A stretch of 64,000 nucleotides of DNA from Brachionus manjavacas (lineage: Eukaryota; Rotifera; Eurotatoria; Ploima; Brachionidae): assembly GCA_019054805.1 (NCBI GenBank), contig JAHQIY010000007.1:4221501-4285500 (forward strand), given 5' to 3'. The notes below the pieces were generated by a model. The model was not told the origin of the DNA and searched no databases. It was given only the letters and a program-made list of their open reading frames with translations. The stretch's first letter is position 1, and each line of letters opens with the position of its first letter. Shown here in pieces: positions 17,198-59,481 of the stretch. The translations under genes and the position numbers were made by a program.

Positions 17198-20100
17198 TTA
17201 CGCTAATTCGTCATCACTTTTGACTGCAATAGGCTCATTTTCGTTAACCGATTGAAATTTTTCACAATCCGAATCTCTCTCATCACTTGCATCCTCTTTA
17301 CGGCTATTCTCTTTTTCCAAACTGGCTGCAATCTGGCTCACATTTATATTCGTAATAGGTTTAACTCTAGATTTTTTTTTCTTAATTTTTACTTCATTAG
17401 TTGCAACAGATTCATCAGGATTTGATTTTTTCGTTGCACTTCTTTCATTCATTTTAAGAACAGAATCCGAATTAGAGGCCTCGGCACTTTGTTCAAGAGC
17501 TGATTCACTAGGAACACTGTAATAATCGGGTGTTTGCTTTCCTTTAGTTTGTTGGTAGCTATCTTGGTTTGCCTGGTTGGCATTATCAGCTAAATTTATT
17601 GACGAAATGCTTCCGTATCGTGAGGCGGATGTTGCTTGATCTTTAGTCTGAACAACATTTGATGTGCCAGAGTCAATTCGAATTTGACTAGTTATACTTC
17701 TTGTCATATGATTGTTAAGACTGCTAATTTCATTGTTATTTTGATTCGAACCCAAAGTGAAATTGTTCAAATTGGTACTGGTTGTTAATACACTTGAGTT
17801 GTCATCATGATTATTTTGACTCAACAGAGCTGTAGATTCGTTTTCGTCTTGATTATTGGCCTCATTCTCTAGCAGAAGAGGCTGAGTCTCTGGATTAGAT
17901 GAAGATGCTACCAGGCTGTCTTCGTTCTCTGACTCCGAATCGCCAGGCAGTACTTTTCTCTTGCACACTGGACACAATCGATTGTTCCTAAGCAGCCATT
18001 TATCAATGCATTCAATGTGATAAGCTACAATTAAAAAAAATAGCAATTTTTTCAAAAAATTTTCTCGTATTTACCATGTTCGCAAGGTAAAATTCTAATT
18101 TTGACACCTTCTTCATATTCGTTTAAGCAAATAGGGCATGTATCATACCTGTCTGTCTTTTGATACTTTTTGGTGGGTATCTTTTTTAAGGCTGATCTCG
18201 GAAATCGGTTCTTTCGAATTTTTCTACAATGAAGTATTAATTTTATACTCTTAAATAAAATAAATCAATTAAATAATTAAATAAAAAGTATTCAAAACCT
18301 ACAAAAATGCAGACTGCAGTAAGAAAACAAACACAAATAACCGACACAAAAGGTATAAGGAAGTAACTTAGATCCGAATCGTTGGTCAAGCTCACATAAG
18401 TTCCATTTTTGTAAGTGTAATGCACTTTTAGATCTAAACCGTCTGAATGACCGACAAATACCGAGGGTATTTTGATGTTATAGCGACCACTTGAGCTCAT
18501 TTTAATCAAATTATCCGACTCGGAGTTGAATATTATGACGGCAGCGTATCCAGCTTGTTGAGCATTGTGAACTTTCACATCAAATGAACAATTTCCAAAT
18601 ATTGATGGAGTGCGTTGAATCAAAGCAATCCATTTGGATGCTTCCACGAATGATACATTTGGTGGCGCTTCAATTTTCGAGCAACCATCTAACGGATTTG
18701 ATGGATTTATGAAGCCCTTTGCCAAAAATAAATCTTCTTTTCTAATTATTAGACTAATTTTTTAATTACAAAAAATCCGTCATCTGGTAGATCTGGACCG
18801 AAACTTGCTGTTAATGATTCAAAAGTGTTCAATGTCTTGTTGTTTGCATCATACTAAAATAATACAATTAAATTTTAAAATTTTTAATAACAAATTTATT
18901 TTATTTAATTTTTAAATTAGTTGATTAAATATATTATTTATAAATAAAATAACATATTTTTTCATTCAAAAAATATATTTAATGAATTTAATTGACTAAA
19001 ATTATGATATAATAAATGTCCAAACAACCTTTATTTATATTTTCACCAAAGAATCTGTTTGATAAGAATCTAAAAACATCACTTCCTTTTTTGATAACTT
19101 TTTTTATTTAATTCTTTGGATCTCTTCTTTCACATTTTAATCAGTCAAATAGACCTTCTATTTAATTTAAAAAAGAAATATCATTATAGCTTATGAAAAT
19201 TTAAGTAATTATTCATTCCATGTTATTTTACAAAATAAATGAGCTATTGTTAATATTACTATTTAATTGATGTCAAAATAATTTACAAAAATTTGACTAA
19301 TAAAAACGTCCAAAAAGATTTGAGGTTTGAGAAATTATCTCATTCAAATGTTTAATTTTAAGAAAAAAATTTCATTAACAACACTTTTTGTTATATATAT
19401 AAACGACCTACCTGACATCATTTCAAACAAAATAGAAATTTATGCCGATGACTCGAAGATTCTTGGAGTAGTTCACAACTTGTATGATAGGGCAAATATG
19501 CAGAAAGACCTAGATGCTCTGTGTGAATGGATTGATGTATGGAGAATGGGTCTCTGTGCTAAAAAATGTAAGATTATGCATTTTGGAAGGCTAAATGCTA
19601 GATTTTTGTATGAAACATCGGGAAAAGAGGGATTGGATAAAAATCAACTGTGTACCACTGAGTGTGAAAAGGATCTAGGCGTTATGGTGTCTTCAGACCT
19701 TAAATGGACATGTCAAGTAAAAAACGCGTGCGCAAAAGCAAATAAAGCACTCGGAATTCTTAAAAGAACATTTTTAAGTAGAGAAGAAACTCTTTGGTTG
19801 AAACTTTATATGTCTTTGGTTAGACCTCACCTCGACTTTGCAGTTCAAGTTTGGAATCCGAGCAAAAAAGGTGACGTAAAAGCATTAGAAAAAGTACAAG
19901 AGCGTGCAACGAAAATTCCTTGGTCAATAAGAGAAATTTCATACGAGGAAAGGCTTGCCAGATTGGTTTTAACAAAACTTAGTGAGAGAAGGGTGAGAGG
20001 TGATTTGATTGAGGTTTTTAAAGTGATTGACGGTCATGAACCAGAGAACTTCTAGATCCTGTTGGCAGGAATGGACCGATACCGAGGTTAAGAGGAACAG

Positions 20101-44786: not shown

Positions 44787-46942
44787 TTAGTCTTCCTTTA
44801 TATTTGACCCATTAGATAGCTTTTCAGAACTCAAGCAGAAATCTTCCACATGTCCATTTGGTTCAAAACAATTCCCATTCGCATCAACTAGCTTTTTAGC
44901 ATCATGCTTAGATACAGTCTTAATTTCAACTTGTTTTGGTACAAAAAATTTATGACCAATGATGCAGTATATTTTTCCATGTAAGAGTATAAATAATGTT
45001 TGGTGAATATGAGCAGCAATTCGGTACCAGGGCCCTTCAAAAGGATCACTAACAGCCGGACACATTATTGAATTCAGATTCACTTCGGTTATGAACGATA
45101 TCGGCTGTAGCACTAAATAATGGTATAAACGCATGAATCCAATTGAAATAAATCCCCAGTGAAAGTTCGACAGTGGCTCCATATTGTATATGCCTAAAGT
45201 TTATTAAATATTAAGAATTTTACAACACTTTTTGTTTTAACTTTTAAAAGAGCCTAAAAATTTTTAATTTTTAAAAAATAGTTCCTATAGGCCAAATACA
45301 AGGTCTAAAAAATATATTCATTTAATAATTAAACATTTTCCGAATATGTTTTTTATTATCGATCAACGGATAGACAATGAAATTTATCTATTAAAAAACC
45401 ATTTTACTTTTTGTACTTTATGTCCTTTATGGCAATTTCATTTTAATGTAGCCTGCTATTTTTTGTACTTTTTGAAAAAGTACAAAAAGGATTTTTACTT
45501 TTTAATATTCTCATTTTCTATACTTTTTTTACCATCAAAAGCTGGTAAAAACAAAAAATAATAATAATTTGTAATTTTTTTTTCCTAGCAAAAAAGAGGG
45601 GAGGCGCTAATTTCTTTTTCCAGTACCTTTTAGAACAACGGCTCCGACATGAGACAGAGGCTACTGCATCGAGTTTATCTTCTACACCGCAACTATTACC
45701 CGTTCGAAACCAGTCCTCCTTTTATTAAAGGGGTTTAAACATGCATTCCGTACTGGAGAGATATTTCTCAGCGGGTTTTAAATCTTTGATCCTCTGCTTA
45801 TTTTTGGTAAAATTTAATTTATATTTTTCACCAAAAATTAAGAACTTTTTAAACTATTCTTTAAATATTTTTTTTTCAATTAGGTTAAAATTTCTTAAAG
45901 CAATAAAGATTTATCAGCTTTTAAAAAATCTACTTTACAACATTGCAATAAATCAAGATTGATGAGAAAAACTGACTACTAATTTTAAATTGAATTACCC
46001 TTATTTAAGATAATACTTAAAAAAATTTCAATAAAATTACTATTTTTACAGCTACATCGTCGATTTTAAGTGAAAATACAAACCACGCAAAAATCAAATC
46101 CTAATACAAATATTTATTTTAATAGCAGACTATGAACATGTTAGTCAATTAATTTTTCATCAAAATAATTGTTGGCTCTAATGATATTTAATTTTCTTTT
46201 AGCTTTTGTATATTTTTGCTTATTAGTTGAATTTAATTTCAATGAAAATTGAAAAAAAAGCTTATAAGATAAAGTAAATAGTAAAATTTACCTCCTAGTC
46301 TCATTAAATATAATGGCGTGACTAACATCAGAGCGTGGTGAATGTAGTAAGAGGCTTTTTCGAAAGGTAACTTAAAAAATGAATCAAGATTAAAAAAAAT
46401 TCAAACAAAAATCTATTTAACTTACTATTCTGGTGTTTAGAACCGGGAAAATAATTGCTATGGTTGCTCCACTAACTACATAAGTTTGAAAACGGAATAA
46501 AATATGCATCCAATTTCGGGGCGGACTGATTAAAAGAATGATCTAAAAAAACAATATTAAAATTCTAATTTTTTTCTACATTTAGAATCAAATCTAAAAT
46601 TTTACTATTCTAAATTATTACTTGTAAAAATGTCACTACATGGCATGGATTTAGAATGAAAATTAATTGCCTAGTGGACAGTTTGTAACCAATTTCAATG
46701 CCCCAAATCAAACAAAGACTTGCCAAGAGCAGTTTTCGACCAAATCTTTCCCTCAGCTCTAAATTTGGTTTGTAATTGGAAATGGATCTTGTCCATGGAT
46801 AATAAATTTCAGCTACCAGCGAGTAAATGATAATTAGAATGGTCTCGGCAATGATGGAAGTAGGTGACAAAAAATTGACGCAATCCGGTCCACCATTCCC
46901 TTTTAGCGAAAAGTTCACTCCACTATAAGACCATTCAAGCAT
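44787..46942 (-). CDS. TMEM164: TMEM164 family membrane protein
   Basis: Exons 46622-46942, 46426-46542, 46292-46370 and 44787-45193 on the minus strand; 924 nt, or 307 aa, close to the human 297. It begins MLEWSYSGVNFS and continues KGNGGPDCVNFLSP, the family opening. Then come several membrane helices, the ILNPCHVVTFLQ segment, PPRNWMHILFRFQTYVVSG, FPVLNTR, LPFEKASYYIHHALMLVTPL, MEPLSNFHWGF and VTEVNLNSIMCPAVSDPFEG. The Cys of NPCH corresponds to human C123, reported as the acyl-enzyme residue in TMEM164, which makes polyunsaturated ether phosphatidylethanolamines. The cytosolic tail differs from vertebrates. The start is ATG 46942; an AG acceptor at about 46977 leaves room for an upstream exon that would add a few residues. 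The third intron (45194-46291) carries a foldback-type element and a GC-richer island. Confidence 0.92.
45366..45526. mobile_element. Short foldback-type element in TMEM164 intron
   Basis: Starts with ATAGACAATGAAAT and ends with TTCTCATTTTCTATACTT, an imperfect terminal inverted repeat like that of the 541-bp element at 49.7 kb. Inside are inward-facing units: TTTTGTACTTTATGTCCTTT on the left and AAAGTACAAAAAGGATTTTT on the right, meeting at TTTTTGTACTTTTTGAAAAA. It looks like a deletion derivative of the same family. Target duplication not evident. Confidence 0.75.
45590..45780 (+). other. GC-richer island, possible SINE remnant
   Basis: Inside TMEM164 intron 3, a roughly 190-bp stretch of visibly higher G+C than its surroundings. 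It includes CGTTCGAAACC, one base off the RNA polymerase III B-box consensus. No convincing A box or tRNA cloverleaf could be drawn, so a tRNA gene is not claimed. It may be a tRNA-derived SINE piece or unrelated inserted DNA. Confidence 0.35.
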
Positions 46943-49729: not shown

Positions 49730-49737
49730 ATAAGGAT

Positions 49738-50278
49738 CATGGAAAGACAATGAGATCAAACTTTTAAAAAACTATTTTCCTTTCTGTACTTTTTGTCCTT
49801 TTTCTAATTATTTTATTTGGCCCTGTTCCTTTTTGTACTTTCTGTACTTTTTGTACTTTTTCTAATTATTTTATTTGGTCCTGTTCCTTTTTGTACTCTT
49901 TGTGATTAAGTTTAATTTTAATGATTTTATTAAAAGTTAAACGGGGTCCGGGGCGGAGCCCTGGTTTAGGGATTCGGGTATGCTGAAGGTAAGAAAAATA
50001 TTAGTTAAATATAAAATTTATATTTAAAATATTGATTAATAAAAGGTTTTTTTACCATTAAGAACAAAAAGTACAGAAAGTACAAAAAGGAAGAGGGCCA
50101 AATATAATAATATTCTAAAGAAGTACAAAAAGTACAGGAAGGAACAGGGCCAAATAAAATAATATTCTGAAAAAGTACAAAAAGTACAAAAAGGAACAGG
50201 GCCAAATAAAATAATTAGAAAAAGTACAAAAAGTACAGAAAGGATTTTTACTTTAAATATTTTCATTGTCTATACCTC
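49738..50278. mobile_element. Foldback transposon with internal minisatellite and 8-bp target duplication
   Basis: 541 bp flanked by ATAAGGAT at 49730-49737 and again at 50279-50286. The ends are inverted: left CATGGAAAGACAATGAGATC, right the complement of GAGGTATAGACAATGAAAAT. From both ends run head-to-tail units of about 50 bp built from CCCTGTTCCTTTTTGTACTT and TTTCTAATTATTTTATTTGG. There are about two copies on the left and about four on the right in inverted sense. The arms flank a unique GC-rich centre near 49940-49990 (GGGGTCCGGGGCGGAGCCC). No transposase frame is present, so it is non-autonomous. An 8-bp duplication is typical of hAT elements. Open frames on its minus strand are translations of the repeats. 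Confidence 0.85.
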
Positions 50279-50286
50279 ATAAGGAT

Positions 50287-56300: not shown

Positions 56301-59300
56301 ACATAAAATACTCACTCTTTTTTGCAGATGGTCTGATTACTTTCTTCATATTTAAAAAGACAGGAAGAATAGAAAGATAAATAAATAGCTACTTAAAAGA
56401 AATAGAACCATGGTTATGCAAATGGAAGATGAAAATTTGCCCAAATAAATGTAGCTACCCAGTTTTCACAAAAAATAAGAGATATAATAATATTTTTAGG
56501 CTTCAGTTATTCAACAAAACTATTCCCTGTTCTAAAACTAATAAATTTCTTGGTCTTTACTTTGATGAAAGTCTTTGCTTTGATAAAAAATTAAAGAAGT
56601 AAAGACTAAATGCTTGAATAGACTCAGTATAATAAAAATTTTGTCTTCAAACAATTATTAACTCAATTCTGGATTATAATTTTCCATGTCTTAACTCATT
56701 GTCCGAATCAGGTTTACAAAAGTTACAAGTTATTCAAAATGCTGCTGTTAGATGCTAAAACTTCCTCTCAGAACCTCCTCTGAATCATTATTCTATGAAG
56801 CAGAAAATAAATTAAATATTAGTAAAATTGACCACAGACTAAGCAATCTCTTAGAAAATTACCTTCGTAATGCTCTTGATTATTCAGTTCCATTGACTAG
56901 TAGACTTGTTTCAGATTATCAAAGAGGCTTCGATTCTAGATTTATTACGAATCCCACTCCTTTATGTAGCTGCTACCGAATTATACAAAAATTTTCTGAC
57001 TCTTAAGATCTTATCTATGTTTTCTTATTTTTTTTTCTGATGCTCATGTTATTTTTATTCATTTTTAATTATTATTTATGTCTCTCATCCGTTCATTAAT
57101 AAACTAAAATAACTTACTTCAAATTTGAAATGTTTTAAAACTGTTTTAATTATTTTATTTTATTTTTTTTATCTGAAAGAGCTTATGCTCGAACAGAAAA
57201 ACAAATAAATAATAATATGTAAATTTACGAATTTCCTTGCAATTAAAAAGATACACCAAAGTAATTATTTTCATTGAAAGTAAAAAAAAATTATATTTTA
57301 ATTTTTTTTGAGTTAAAAATTAAGTGAAAACTATTTAGATTATTTAGATTTACTTAATTTTAAAATTGTTATCTAATGCAATAAATTAAAGGTGGACCCG
57401 GAAGAACACTTAGAATTTGTAGTGTATTTGAATTATTTAAAGTCGGTCTCATGAAAGAATACGCAGAGTATTTTTCAAGCATTGACCGAGCCAGGGCTCG
57501 AGTGGATTCATTGATGCAAGTTTCATTAAGCAACAATTCTTCTGAGCATACCAAAGAACTCTACATCCGCCAATTTCGATCGAAATTGGAAGAATGCTCG
57601 TCCAAAAGTAAATTTGGCAAATATAAACTAACCGATTTGATGGGTTTGCCATATCAGCGGGTACTGAAATATCATCTTTTGTTTAGCGAATTACTCAAGC
57701 AAACTGATGTAGACCACACAGCCAAAGATGTGATCAAAAAAACCAAGGATTCAATGTGCGAACTGGGCAACTATTTAAACGAATGCCAGAGAGACAAAGA
57801 AAATTTGAGCAAAATAGAATTTTTGCTAAAATTTTTACTTATTAACAACAACTCAAACGAAACTGCTCGTTCGTCACTCTACTCGACCAGTTTCAATCTA
57901 AATCTACTCAAAGACTATGGCCACTACATCAAAGATGACAAATTTCGAATAAAATCGATCGACTCAGGCGAAAGATACGCGCGGACAAGAACCTTTTTTT
58001 TGTTCGAAAAAGCGCTCATAGTCTGCAAATTAAAAGGAAACTACTACAACTACAAGGAAACACTTTTGATAAATGATTTCTCAATCGAGGACCACTACCA
58101 ATCCAATTTGTCATCTCAGTCATCAAGCAATCTTCCGCATGGCCTCATATCCAATCTGTTCAACAGTTCCAATCTAAACTCAACTGCCAACTTGTCGACC
58201 AGCTCTCTTAATTTGAATTCGAGCTCAAACGCTCACTCGCTGCATCTAATCAACCAGGAACTTTCAAAAATTTATTTAATTATCTTCAAAAATAAAGAAC
58301 ACAAAAAAGAATGGAAAGAGTGTTTGCTAAAAGCCAAAGAAAAAATGCGCCCAGAAGGGCAGCGAGCATTTAAGCACTTTTTTGAATTGACCAATTTTGA
58401 CCGAGAATTGGTCACGTGTTGTGTATGCAGCAAGTATTTGTTGGGACTATTTTACCAAGGCTACAAATGCTCGCAGTGTTCAAGCATAGCTCACAAAGAG
58501 TGCTTGACCAAAGTAACATCTACTTGTAGCTCATTCAGTTCATTGCCGATCCAGGCACCATTGTTGACCAGACCAGTGTCCAACTCCGGTGTCACAATAA
58601 CTCGCTCTTTGTCCACCAACTCGGCTAAGTCCAACTACAATCAGACTTTGTTGGCTCAAGCGATCTACAACTATGATGGCCGACCAGCACCGCCGGAAGG
58701 AGCTGCAGTAAGCTTCAACCAAGGAGACTTGATTCAGGTGACAGATGATGATGACGATGACTGGTGGAAAGGCGTTGTTGTTGCCAAAAATAAAGAGGGA
58801 TACTTTCCGCGCCGCCATGTCAGGGTCATGCAAAATCATAGGCTTAGTCACAGCTTGTCCTCCGGGCACTTGAGCCGTAACCTAAACCTAGAAGAGTATC
58901 CTTGGTTTTCGCCAGTAGATAGATTCATGGCTGATGCTATTTTGACCCGAATACCAAATGATCTATCGGAGACTATTTTCATGGTTAGATGCAGAAATGA
59001 CGGCGGATATGCCATTTCCATTAAGCACAAAGGAATTGTTGACCACATTAAAATAAATATTAATGAATTGAGCAATTCATCTTTGGCCTATCCGTTGATT
59101 ATTAATGATTCGGCCGAAGATGAAGACTTCACCCATGTGTACTTTATTGACCAACAGCATAATTTTAACTCAATAGTGTCACTCGTAAAGTATTTTAGTG
59201 CACACTTGCTAAAGGATAATTTTCCTCAATTGGACTCGACTTTGGGCATACCTTTTAAGAAAGCACTTCCGCCATATATTAGTGTTGCTGTGGCAAAGCA

Positions 59301-59481
59301 TGACTATAATCCGCCTAGTAAGGAGAATATTGGTGAACAAATTGAGCTTAAGGTTGGCAAAAAGTATTATTTACTAAGTGAGGAAGTGAATGGCTGGTTG
59401 AGAGTGTACAATTCGGATGGTCTTATTGGATTCGTGCCTGGATCGTATTTGAGCGGAAGCAAAGACTTGATTGAATCCTAG
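53351..59481 (+). CDS. VAV: Vav-type Rho guanine nucleotide exchange factor
   Basis: Two exons, 53351-54248 and 57392-59481; 2988 nt, or 995 aa, joined at phase 1 inside the DH domain. Domain order is that of Vav. Calponin homology comes first (about 10-135, WIECIKWLNSL, LRDGEFLCNLVNQIVPG). An acidic region has tyrosines in DDIYYNIV, ESYYTDE and NQVYQTIV that fit the autoinhibitory sites. DH follows (KEILNTEKNFLDGL ... LPYQRVLKYHLLFSELL), then PH, then a C1 zinc finger (HFFELTNFDRELVTCCVC ... HKECL). SH3 is QAIYNYDGRPAPPEG ... DDDDWWKG. SH2 has IFMVRCRNDGGYAISI, with the phosphotyrosine-binding Arg kept although FLVR reads FMVR. A final SH3 is AVAKHDYNPPS ... GWLRVYN. It activates Rac/Rho downstream of tyrosine kinases. 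Longer than human VAV1 because of Ser/Asn-rich inserts in PH and between domains. The only intron, 3.1 kb, holds a LINE. Confidence 0.95.
54249..55520. other. First part of the Vav intron
   Basis: AT-rich intron with no exon recognised. A small GC-richer patch near 54850-54910 (TTTTACGGCCGTCAGTTTGG) is notable but unassigned. LINE homology begins near 55540. Confidence 0.45.
55540..57215 (+). mobile_element. LINE relic (jockey-like RT, family 2) in the Vav intron
   Basis: Plus-strand broken frames give an ordered RT: LKEAINKAKDQSAMGFDGI (about 55720), WKIDKISMLLKKK, NEQSGFRRLWTTADNFIFL (about 56000), FDISKAFEKVWHPTFL and RTGVPQGLVISPLLFSIYIN. The catalytic box is degraded to FFAD followed by Gly instead of Asp. 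Then come LKEIEPWLCKWKMKICPNKC and TNKFLGLYFDESLCF, and a terminal part to 57005. The untranslated tail ends with the GAGCTTATGCTC hairpin (57179-57190) and an ACAAATAAATAATAAT tail. Stops and the D-to-G change show it is dead. It is clearly distinct from the family-1 LINEs at 15 and 19 kb. Confidence 0.88.

Follow-up and report, generated by a model that had tools for sequence, protein, structure and literature searches.

A probable non-autonomous foldback transposon family with minisatellite arms in the rotifer Brachionus manjavacas

The 541-bp block at 49738-50278 of the window, a 64,000-nucleotide stretch of a Brachionus manjavacas contig, is very probably (about 0.88 by our estimate) a member of a real mobile family of over 200 copies, a non-autonomous foldback DNA transposon. 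By structure the element is foldback: inverted arms of tandem subrepeats lie round a middle domain, dispersed copies have common ends and target duplications, and the arms differ in length from copy to copy and within a copy. The ends and duplications point to movement by a transposase supplied in trans. A cut-and-paste (DDE) transposase would recognise the shared ends. To the known foldback elements it contributes a clan that is abundant in a monogonont rotifer.

The element and its family

Direct reading of the window places the 541-bp block between perfect copies of ATAAGGAT, and the coordinates and length given in the initial annotation are exact (Table 1). The same annotation had described arms of about 50-bp units running in opposite directions around a GC-rich centre. 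The unit spacing in this element is 49-52 bp and the inverted arms pair closely, 49778-49852 with 50170-50244 over 75 nt and a second pair over 66 nt, each at 97% complementarity. The GC content at element positions 200-260 is 55%, and that of the other stretches is 10-30%. Folded as a single strand, the element reaches -136.1 kcal/mol, compared with -48.1 +/- 4.3 for shuffled sequences (z = -20.5; 0/100 shuffles as low). Two sub-threshold plant-miRNA hairpins were the Rfam result for the element (27.7 and 27.4 bits versus 144 and 230), weak matches of the kind that inverted arms would give. No tRNA was found within the 64-kb window.

Table 1. Parts of the foldback element and a decayed relative in the window
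Feature	Position	Strand	Basis
Decayed short clan relative	45364..45527	+	Limits by eye; 4.2 kb upstream of the 541-bp element
Left target-site duplication ATAAGGAT	49730..49737	.	Direct reading; 8-bp duplication in 66/85 family end pairs
Foldback element, 541 bp, probably non-autonomous	49738..50278	+	Reading, folding, copies elsewhere with identical start and end bases
Left end CATGGAAAGACAATGAGATCAAACTTTTAAAAAACT; commonest family form CATGGATAGACAATGAGATCAAAC...	49738..49773	+	Reading, family alignment
Left minisatellite arm, 2 units counted, nested 9-bp GTACTTTTT repeats	49775..49903	+	
GC-rich centre, family-conserved, recognisable in the sister family	49942..49984	+	
Right minisatellite arm, 3 counted units running opposite to the left arm	50060..50244	-	
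Right end, inward reading GAGGTATAGACAATGAAAATATTTAAAG...	50245..50278	-	
Right target-site duplication ATAAGGAT	50279..50286	.	Direct reading

The decayed relative has two recognisable ends and one short inverted stretch; neither a GC-rich centre nor a clear target duplication was found in it. Elsewhere in the window, an open frame at 57385-59478 is Vav-like, with 97% identity over 97% of its length to a Brachionus plicatilis VAV2 protein, in keeping with a genome of the B. plicatilis complex, and an open frame at 19324-20055 (+) resembles, by eye, the C-terminal part of a non-LTR reverse transcriptase.

The genome assembly searched consists of 114.17 Mb in 61 contigs. The whole element found many copies in it (40 scored of 800 candidates). 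Allowing 3 mismatches at most, the genome contains 261 matches to the left end CATGGATAGACAATGAGATCAAAC and 200 to the right end GAGGTATAGACAATGAAAATATTT, compared with 0 for the reversed end patterns. For the main patterns, the positions of 100 of the 261 left and 100 of the 200 right matches were used. Among these listed matches, 64 of 100 left ends pair with a right end, and 60 of those pairs are 265-1093 bp apart.

Target duplications were sought at 85 end pairs (loci L001-L030 and L046-L100). The 8 bp on either side agree at 7-8 positions in 66 pairs and exactly in 60, and when flanks were crossed between the 66 copies as a control, 39 of 4290 comparisons reached 7-8 matches. Exact duplications of other lengths are present in 3 (6 bp), 3 (7 bp), 1 (9 bp) and 0 (10 bp) of the 66, copies that were preselected at 8 bp. 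The initial annotation, which had proposed a search for other copies with these ends and with 8-bp duplications at their flanks, survived on both counts. Among the 19 pairs without a 7-of-8 duplication, some have mispaired ends (L007, L021, L029) and some are partial (5-6 of 8). Seven loci have both ends present, yet only 1-3 matches of 8 (L019, L073, L081, L083, L092, L093, L097). The right end of one of these, L092 (C4:4707149-4707787), abuts a hAT C-terminal domain. No reciprocal flank partner indicating recombination was found among nine copies without a duplication.

At least 90% of the 66 copies agree at 33 of 36 left-end and 30 of 36 right-end columns, a conservation biased upward by the choice of copies on their ends and duplications. 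Inverted ends around AGACAATGA had been described at the outset, and correctly, except that the terminal 5 bp of the two ends disagree at three of the five positions: CATGG is the left terminus in 63/66 copies and GAGGT the right in 64/66. The copies are 185-2195 bp long, apart from one of 6248 bp with a Ty3-like retroelement. Among copies compared over 90% or more of their length, the two most similar have 97.9% identity across 483 bp, and the spread is therefore fairly recent.

The element has no evident gene, and the other copies support the original statement that there is no transposase inside. Across 61 copies of up to 1 kb, the median length of the longest stretch between stops is 66 aa, and none exceeds 190 aa. 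The long copy L047 is open over 443 aa; being pure arm repeat, that stretch was rejected as a gene. The foldback anatomy is likewise borne out by other family copies. The retroelement occupies 1622-5517 of L046 (C8:980130-986377), a family copy totalling 6.2 kb, and its open frames appear by eye to be gag-like, RT, RNase H and integrase-like.

Variation of the arms and centre

Units were counted with up to 4 mismatches in a 16-bp core, a count that misses decayed units. Where the centre is in its normal orientation (61 copies), unit counts range from 0 to 21 in the left arm and from 0 to 13 in the right, in support of the early suggestion that arm repeat number changes. Extremes, left to right, include 12:1, 2:13 and 21:12. 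The two numbers are weakly correlated across these copies (Spearman 0.32, p = 0.011); for the 56 smaller copies the coefficient is 0.25 (p = 0.06). The modal spacing of units across the family is 61 bp (140/220), and ladders of 70/61/52/43 and 58/49/40 bp cover 206 of the 220 spacings. The step of 9 bp is the length of the nested GTACTTTTT repeat, and therefore two repeat levels vary in number.

The orientation of the centre also varies. Among 64 copies with a detected centre it is normal in 61, inverted in 2 and mixed in 1, the retroelement-bearing copy. Both inverted-centre copies (L087, and L049 at 2977) have perfect target duplications, and a third inverted centre, in L132, is accompanied by a 7-of-8 duplication read by eye. 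Pairing of the mirror arms, or template switching between them, would be the simplest explanation for an inverted centre. In 60 aligned copies of the first family the mean column agreement of the GC-rich core is 0.96, versus 0.93 and 0.82 in its flanks, the last figure being pulled down by one stretch with an alignment agreement of only about half. With over 200 copies, 0-21 units per arm in those measured, two-level steps and flipped centres, the family is a good natural series for palindromic minisatellite arm growth.

How might the arms have changed? Slippage or unequal exchange within an arm, with occasional exchange between arms, could account for it. Arm growth, arm asymmetry and flips of the centre would come from arms pairing with each other or with another copy, and such pairing would occur in replication or in gap repair after excision. 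Alternatively, replication slippage or unequal exchange could act inside each arm alone, with no dialogue between the two. We regard this as a serious contender, at a little under even odds. Units of the same arm are the most alike (similarity 0.907, then 0.862 for opposite arms of one copy and 0.843 for different copies), and the multi-unit periodicity, with a similarity of 0.928 at lag 5 versus 0.870 for neighbouring units, fits block duplication inside an arm. The 12:1 and 2:13 asymmetry is also in keeping with it, as are the independent arm dynamics described for Galileo (PMC3573991). However, growth within single arms makes inverted centres hard to explain without arm-arm recombination or a template switch. 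In addition, a copy's own opposite arms match better than permuted arms (p = 0.0002), own exceeding others in 41/53 copies, a similarity that could reflect subfamily descent instead of exchange within the copy.

The ends of a sister family, CATGGATAGACAATGAACTTATTTT and GAGCTATAGACAATGAA(A/C)TTC, are almost those of the first, and its GC-rich centre is still recognisable as the same one, but its arm sequences are different. Sister copies with the centre are L129, L136, L153-L157 and L159, and L158 is without it. By eye, an 8-bp duplication flanks L136 and none flanks L129. The sister copy L159 (C4:4350380-4352580) has right-type ends at both sides, which leaves its orientation undefined. L050 and L054 are copies that keep mere scraps of arm. 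Ends and centre persist while arms change, across a clan of families.

These observations can be joined in a broader reading, which we consider doubtful. The ends and GC-rich centre would be the conserved unit of a rotifer hairpin-transposon clan, with the arms built anew from minisatellites in every family (in this one a two-level minisatellite, 9 bp within 61 bp). A single process, template switching between mirror arms during the repair of excision gaps, would underlie both the growth of arms and the flipping of centres, and the centre would be kept for a structural or binding role instead of being filler. If this is true, the copies hold a fossil record of their own repair events.

Candidate transposases

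Which transposase moves the family? Among the end matches listed (100/261 left and 100/200 right), no transposase-bearing copy was found between family ends. Several long or unpaired ends were considered as autonomous candidates and rejected. The 1854- and 2195-bp end pairs have long arms, the 6248-bp pair contains the retroelement, and the 3249-bp pair spans two short copies. L058, whose two ends lie 3.2 kb apart with a weak MULE match between them, resolves into two separate short copies. Reading inward for about 400 bp from 40 unpaired ends (36 left, 4 right) showed ordinary family sequence of 200 bp or more in 28. Of the other 12, four were followed further: L143 and L144 contain nested insertions (a MULE and a LINE-like element), and L141 and L142 have the 16-bp end in common with no partner end seen. 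L129 and L136 belong to the sister family, and the remaining six are L106, L117, L121, L126, L135 and L138.

Among the candidate superfamilies the largest share is given to a Mutator-like transposase, for example of Phantom type, in which case the family would be a Mutator/foldback element comparable to Tm1, from root-knot nematodes. This is a tentative preference at clearly less than even odds, and the resemblance to Tm1 is a lead only. It is favoured because the asymmetric CATGG and GAGGT ends resemble the Tm1 terminal motifs: they are short and lie outside the shared inverted core, as in Tm1 and in Mutator elements with sub-terminal inverted repeats (PMC3169594). MULE domains are also abundant in the genome (150 scored of 394 candidates). 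On the other hand, the duplications are of 8 bp (exact in 60/85 pairs), whereas 9 is usual for Mutator-like elements, within a range of 8-10. The only MULE found between two family ends, that of L143, is a nested insertion. Proximity was assessed with 199 listed ends, 150 MULE matches and 53 Merlin matches, which are the 60 obtained less seven that lie in close tandem arrays, and 2 listed MULE-end pairs lie within 6 kb, one of them L143, versus 3.1 expected by chance. L143 was rejected as a Mutator-bearing autonomous copy on the evidence of L147, where the MULE's own end GGGTATATTATTATAG sits in an unrelated flank. Subterminal repeats of GTCAAATTT are numerous in this MULE family (L143 85-2415; L147), whose left end is GGGTATATTATTATAGTCAAATTT. 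Elsewhere, the 38 kb of C18:1091920-1129517 contain nine matches to MULE domains, on both strands.

The initial annotation assigned the element to hAT. Duplications of hAT elements have the signature nTnnnnAn, and their ends are of the type YARNG. The 8-bp length of the duplications agrees with movement by a hAT transposase, hAT domains are abundant (150 scored of 397 PF05699 candidates), and CATGGATAGACAATGA has letters in common with CAGGGATGGGCAA-type hAT ends. Nevertheless, T2 and A7 of the signature occur together in 4/66 duplications, whereas frequencies of 37% each for T and A would predict about 9. CATGG and GAGGT are not of the YARNG type, the right end GAGGT failing to fit. The sole local hAT-domain family with readable ends, among the 15 of 150 hAT loci viewed, terminates in TAGTGATG, and no hAT lies between the family ends among located copies. 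The autonomous hAT with the same ends that had been anticipated was not found among the end matches listed. Because two hAT features, the duplication signature and the end type, were tested and are absent, the family is not filed as hAT, and we consider a hAT transposase unlikely. One hAT domain, at C4:4707200, was weighed as a partner, being the sole one of the 150 listed within 6 kb of a listed end; it is outside the copy. The hAT-domain family with readable ends, at L037, L039 and L044, terminates in TAGTGATGTTATTTG, with an 8-bp duplication TAGATAAT read by eye at the flanks of L039.

Nor is the length of the duplication the pointer to hAT that it was at first taken to be, as local Merlin elements make 8-bp duplications too; an 8-bp duplication alone does not mean hAT. 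These elements, with long open frames and exact duplications, are the grounds for proposing that a Merlin (IS1595-like) transposase moves the family, which is very improbable. The ends are GGG or GGC in the four Merlin elements examined of 60 matches (two of the four are one family), as opposed to CATGG and GAGGT, and 0 of the 53 domains lie within 6 kb of a listed end, where 1.1 would be expected. In the four elements (L149, L150, L151, L152) the ends that start with GGG or GGC are inverted copies of each other, perfectly or nearly so. Merlin-like fragments at L141 were set aside as a link, since the four Merlin elements have other ends. Merlin-domain fragments are also regularly spaced at C1:2487026-2508796, mostly 3.3-3.4 kb apart, and at C7:79893-82016 four of them are exactly 628 bp apart; both are apparently transposon pieces captured in tandem arrays. 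For the P superfamily, PF21787 gave 0 genome matches, and the control of the same search was also silent.

That there is no transposon, and only an inverted minisatellite with chance 8-bp repeats in AT-rich, low-complexity surroundings, is refuted by the 85-pair duplication test, the same ends being found at over 200 places with 8-bp duplications specific to each copy, and has practically no remaining probability.

Comparison with known foldback systems

Galileo elements of Drosophila have target duplications of 7 bp. The hATpin-type hairpin hAT elements and the sea-urchin TU elements are hairpin or foldback structures with 8-bp duplications, and on this general description they are like the rotifer family.

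Tm1 is a Mutator/foldback family of root-knot nematodes, one copy of which encodes a Phantom-type transposase (PMC3169594). Like the rotifer family, it has composite inverted arms in which the number of tandem repeats varies, short and asymmetric end motifs that lie beyond the inverted repeat, and a majority of copies without a transposase, and in one Tm1 class the arms are separated by a hairpin motif (PMC3169594). It differs in its 9-bp duplications, units of about 14 bp and other sequence, and in the transposase of its one copy, none having been found in the rotifer family among located copies (PMC3169594).

Tetris of Drosophila virilis is likewise an apparently non-autonomous foldback element with tandem repeats in the arms and 8-9 bp duplications in complete copies (PMC4079207). 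Its ends are common to another element, DAIBAM, and no autonomous copy is reported there (PMC4079207). Unlike the rotifer family, its TIR-220 repeats have seeded satellite arrays, and it has three structurally complete copies (PMC4079207).

Galileo belongs to the P superfamily, and it is alike in its tandem-repeat arms, with a unit number differing between arms (PMC3573991, PMC4168063). Its arm repeats have transposase-binding sites, and unlike the rotifer family it encodes a P-type transposase (PMC3573991, PMC4168063, PMC3688188). By analogy with THAP sites in the Galileo arms (PMC3688188), the 9-bp GTACTTTTT motifs of the rotifer arms are putative accessory transposase binding sites.

Judged by titles and the starts of abstracts, no published rotifer foldback clan was found; the word 'foldback' occurs once in a bdelloid paper (PMC2861651). 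Tm1, Tetris and Galileo are the closest known systems, and the rotifer element is a new example of a known foldback class.
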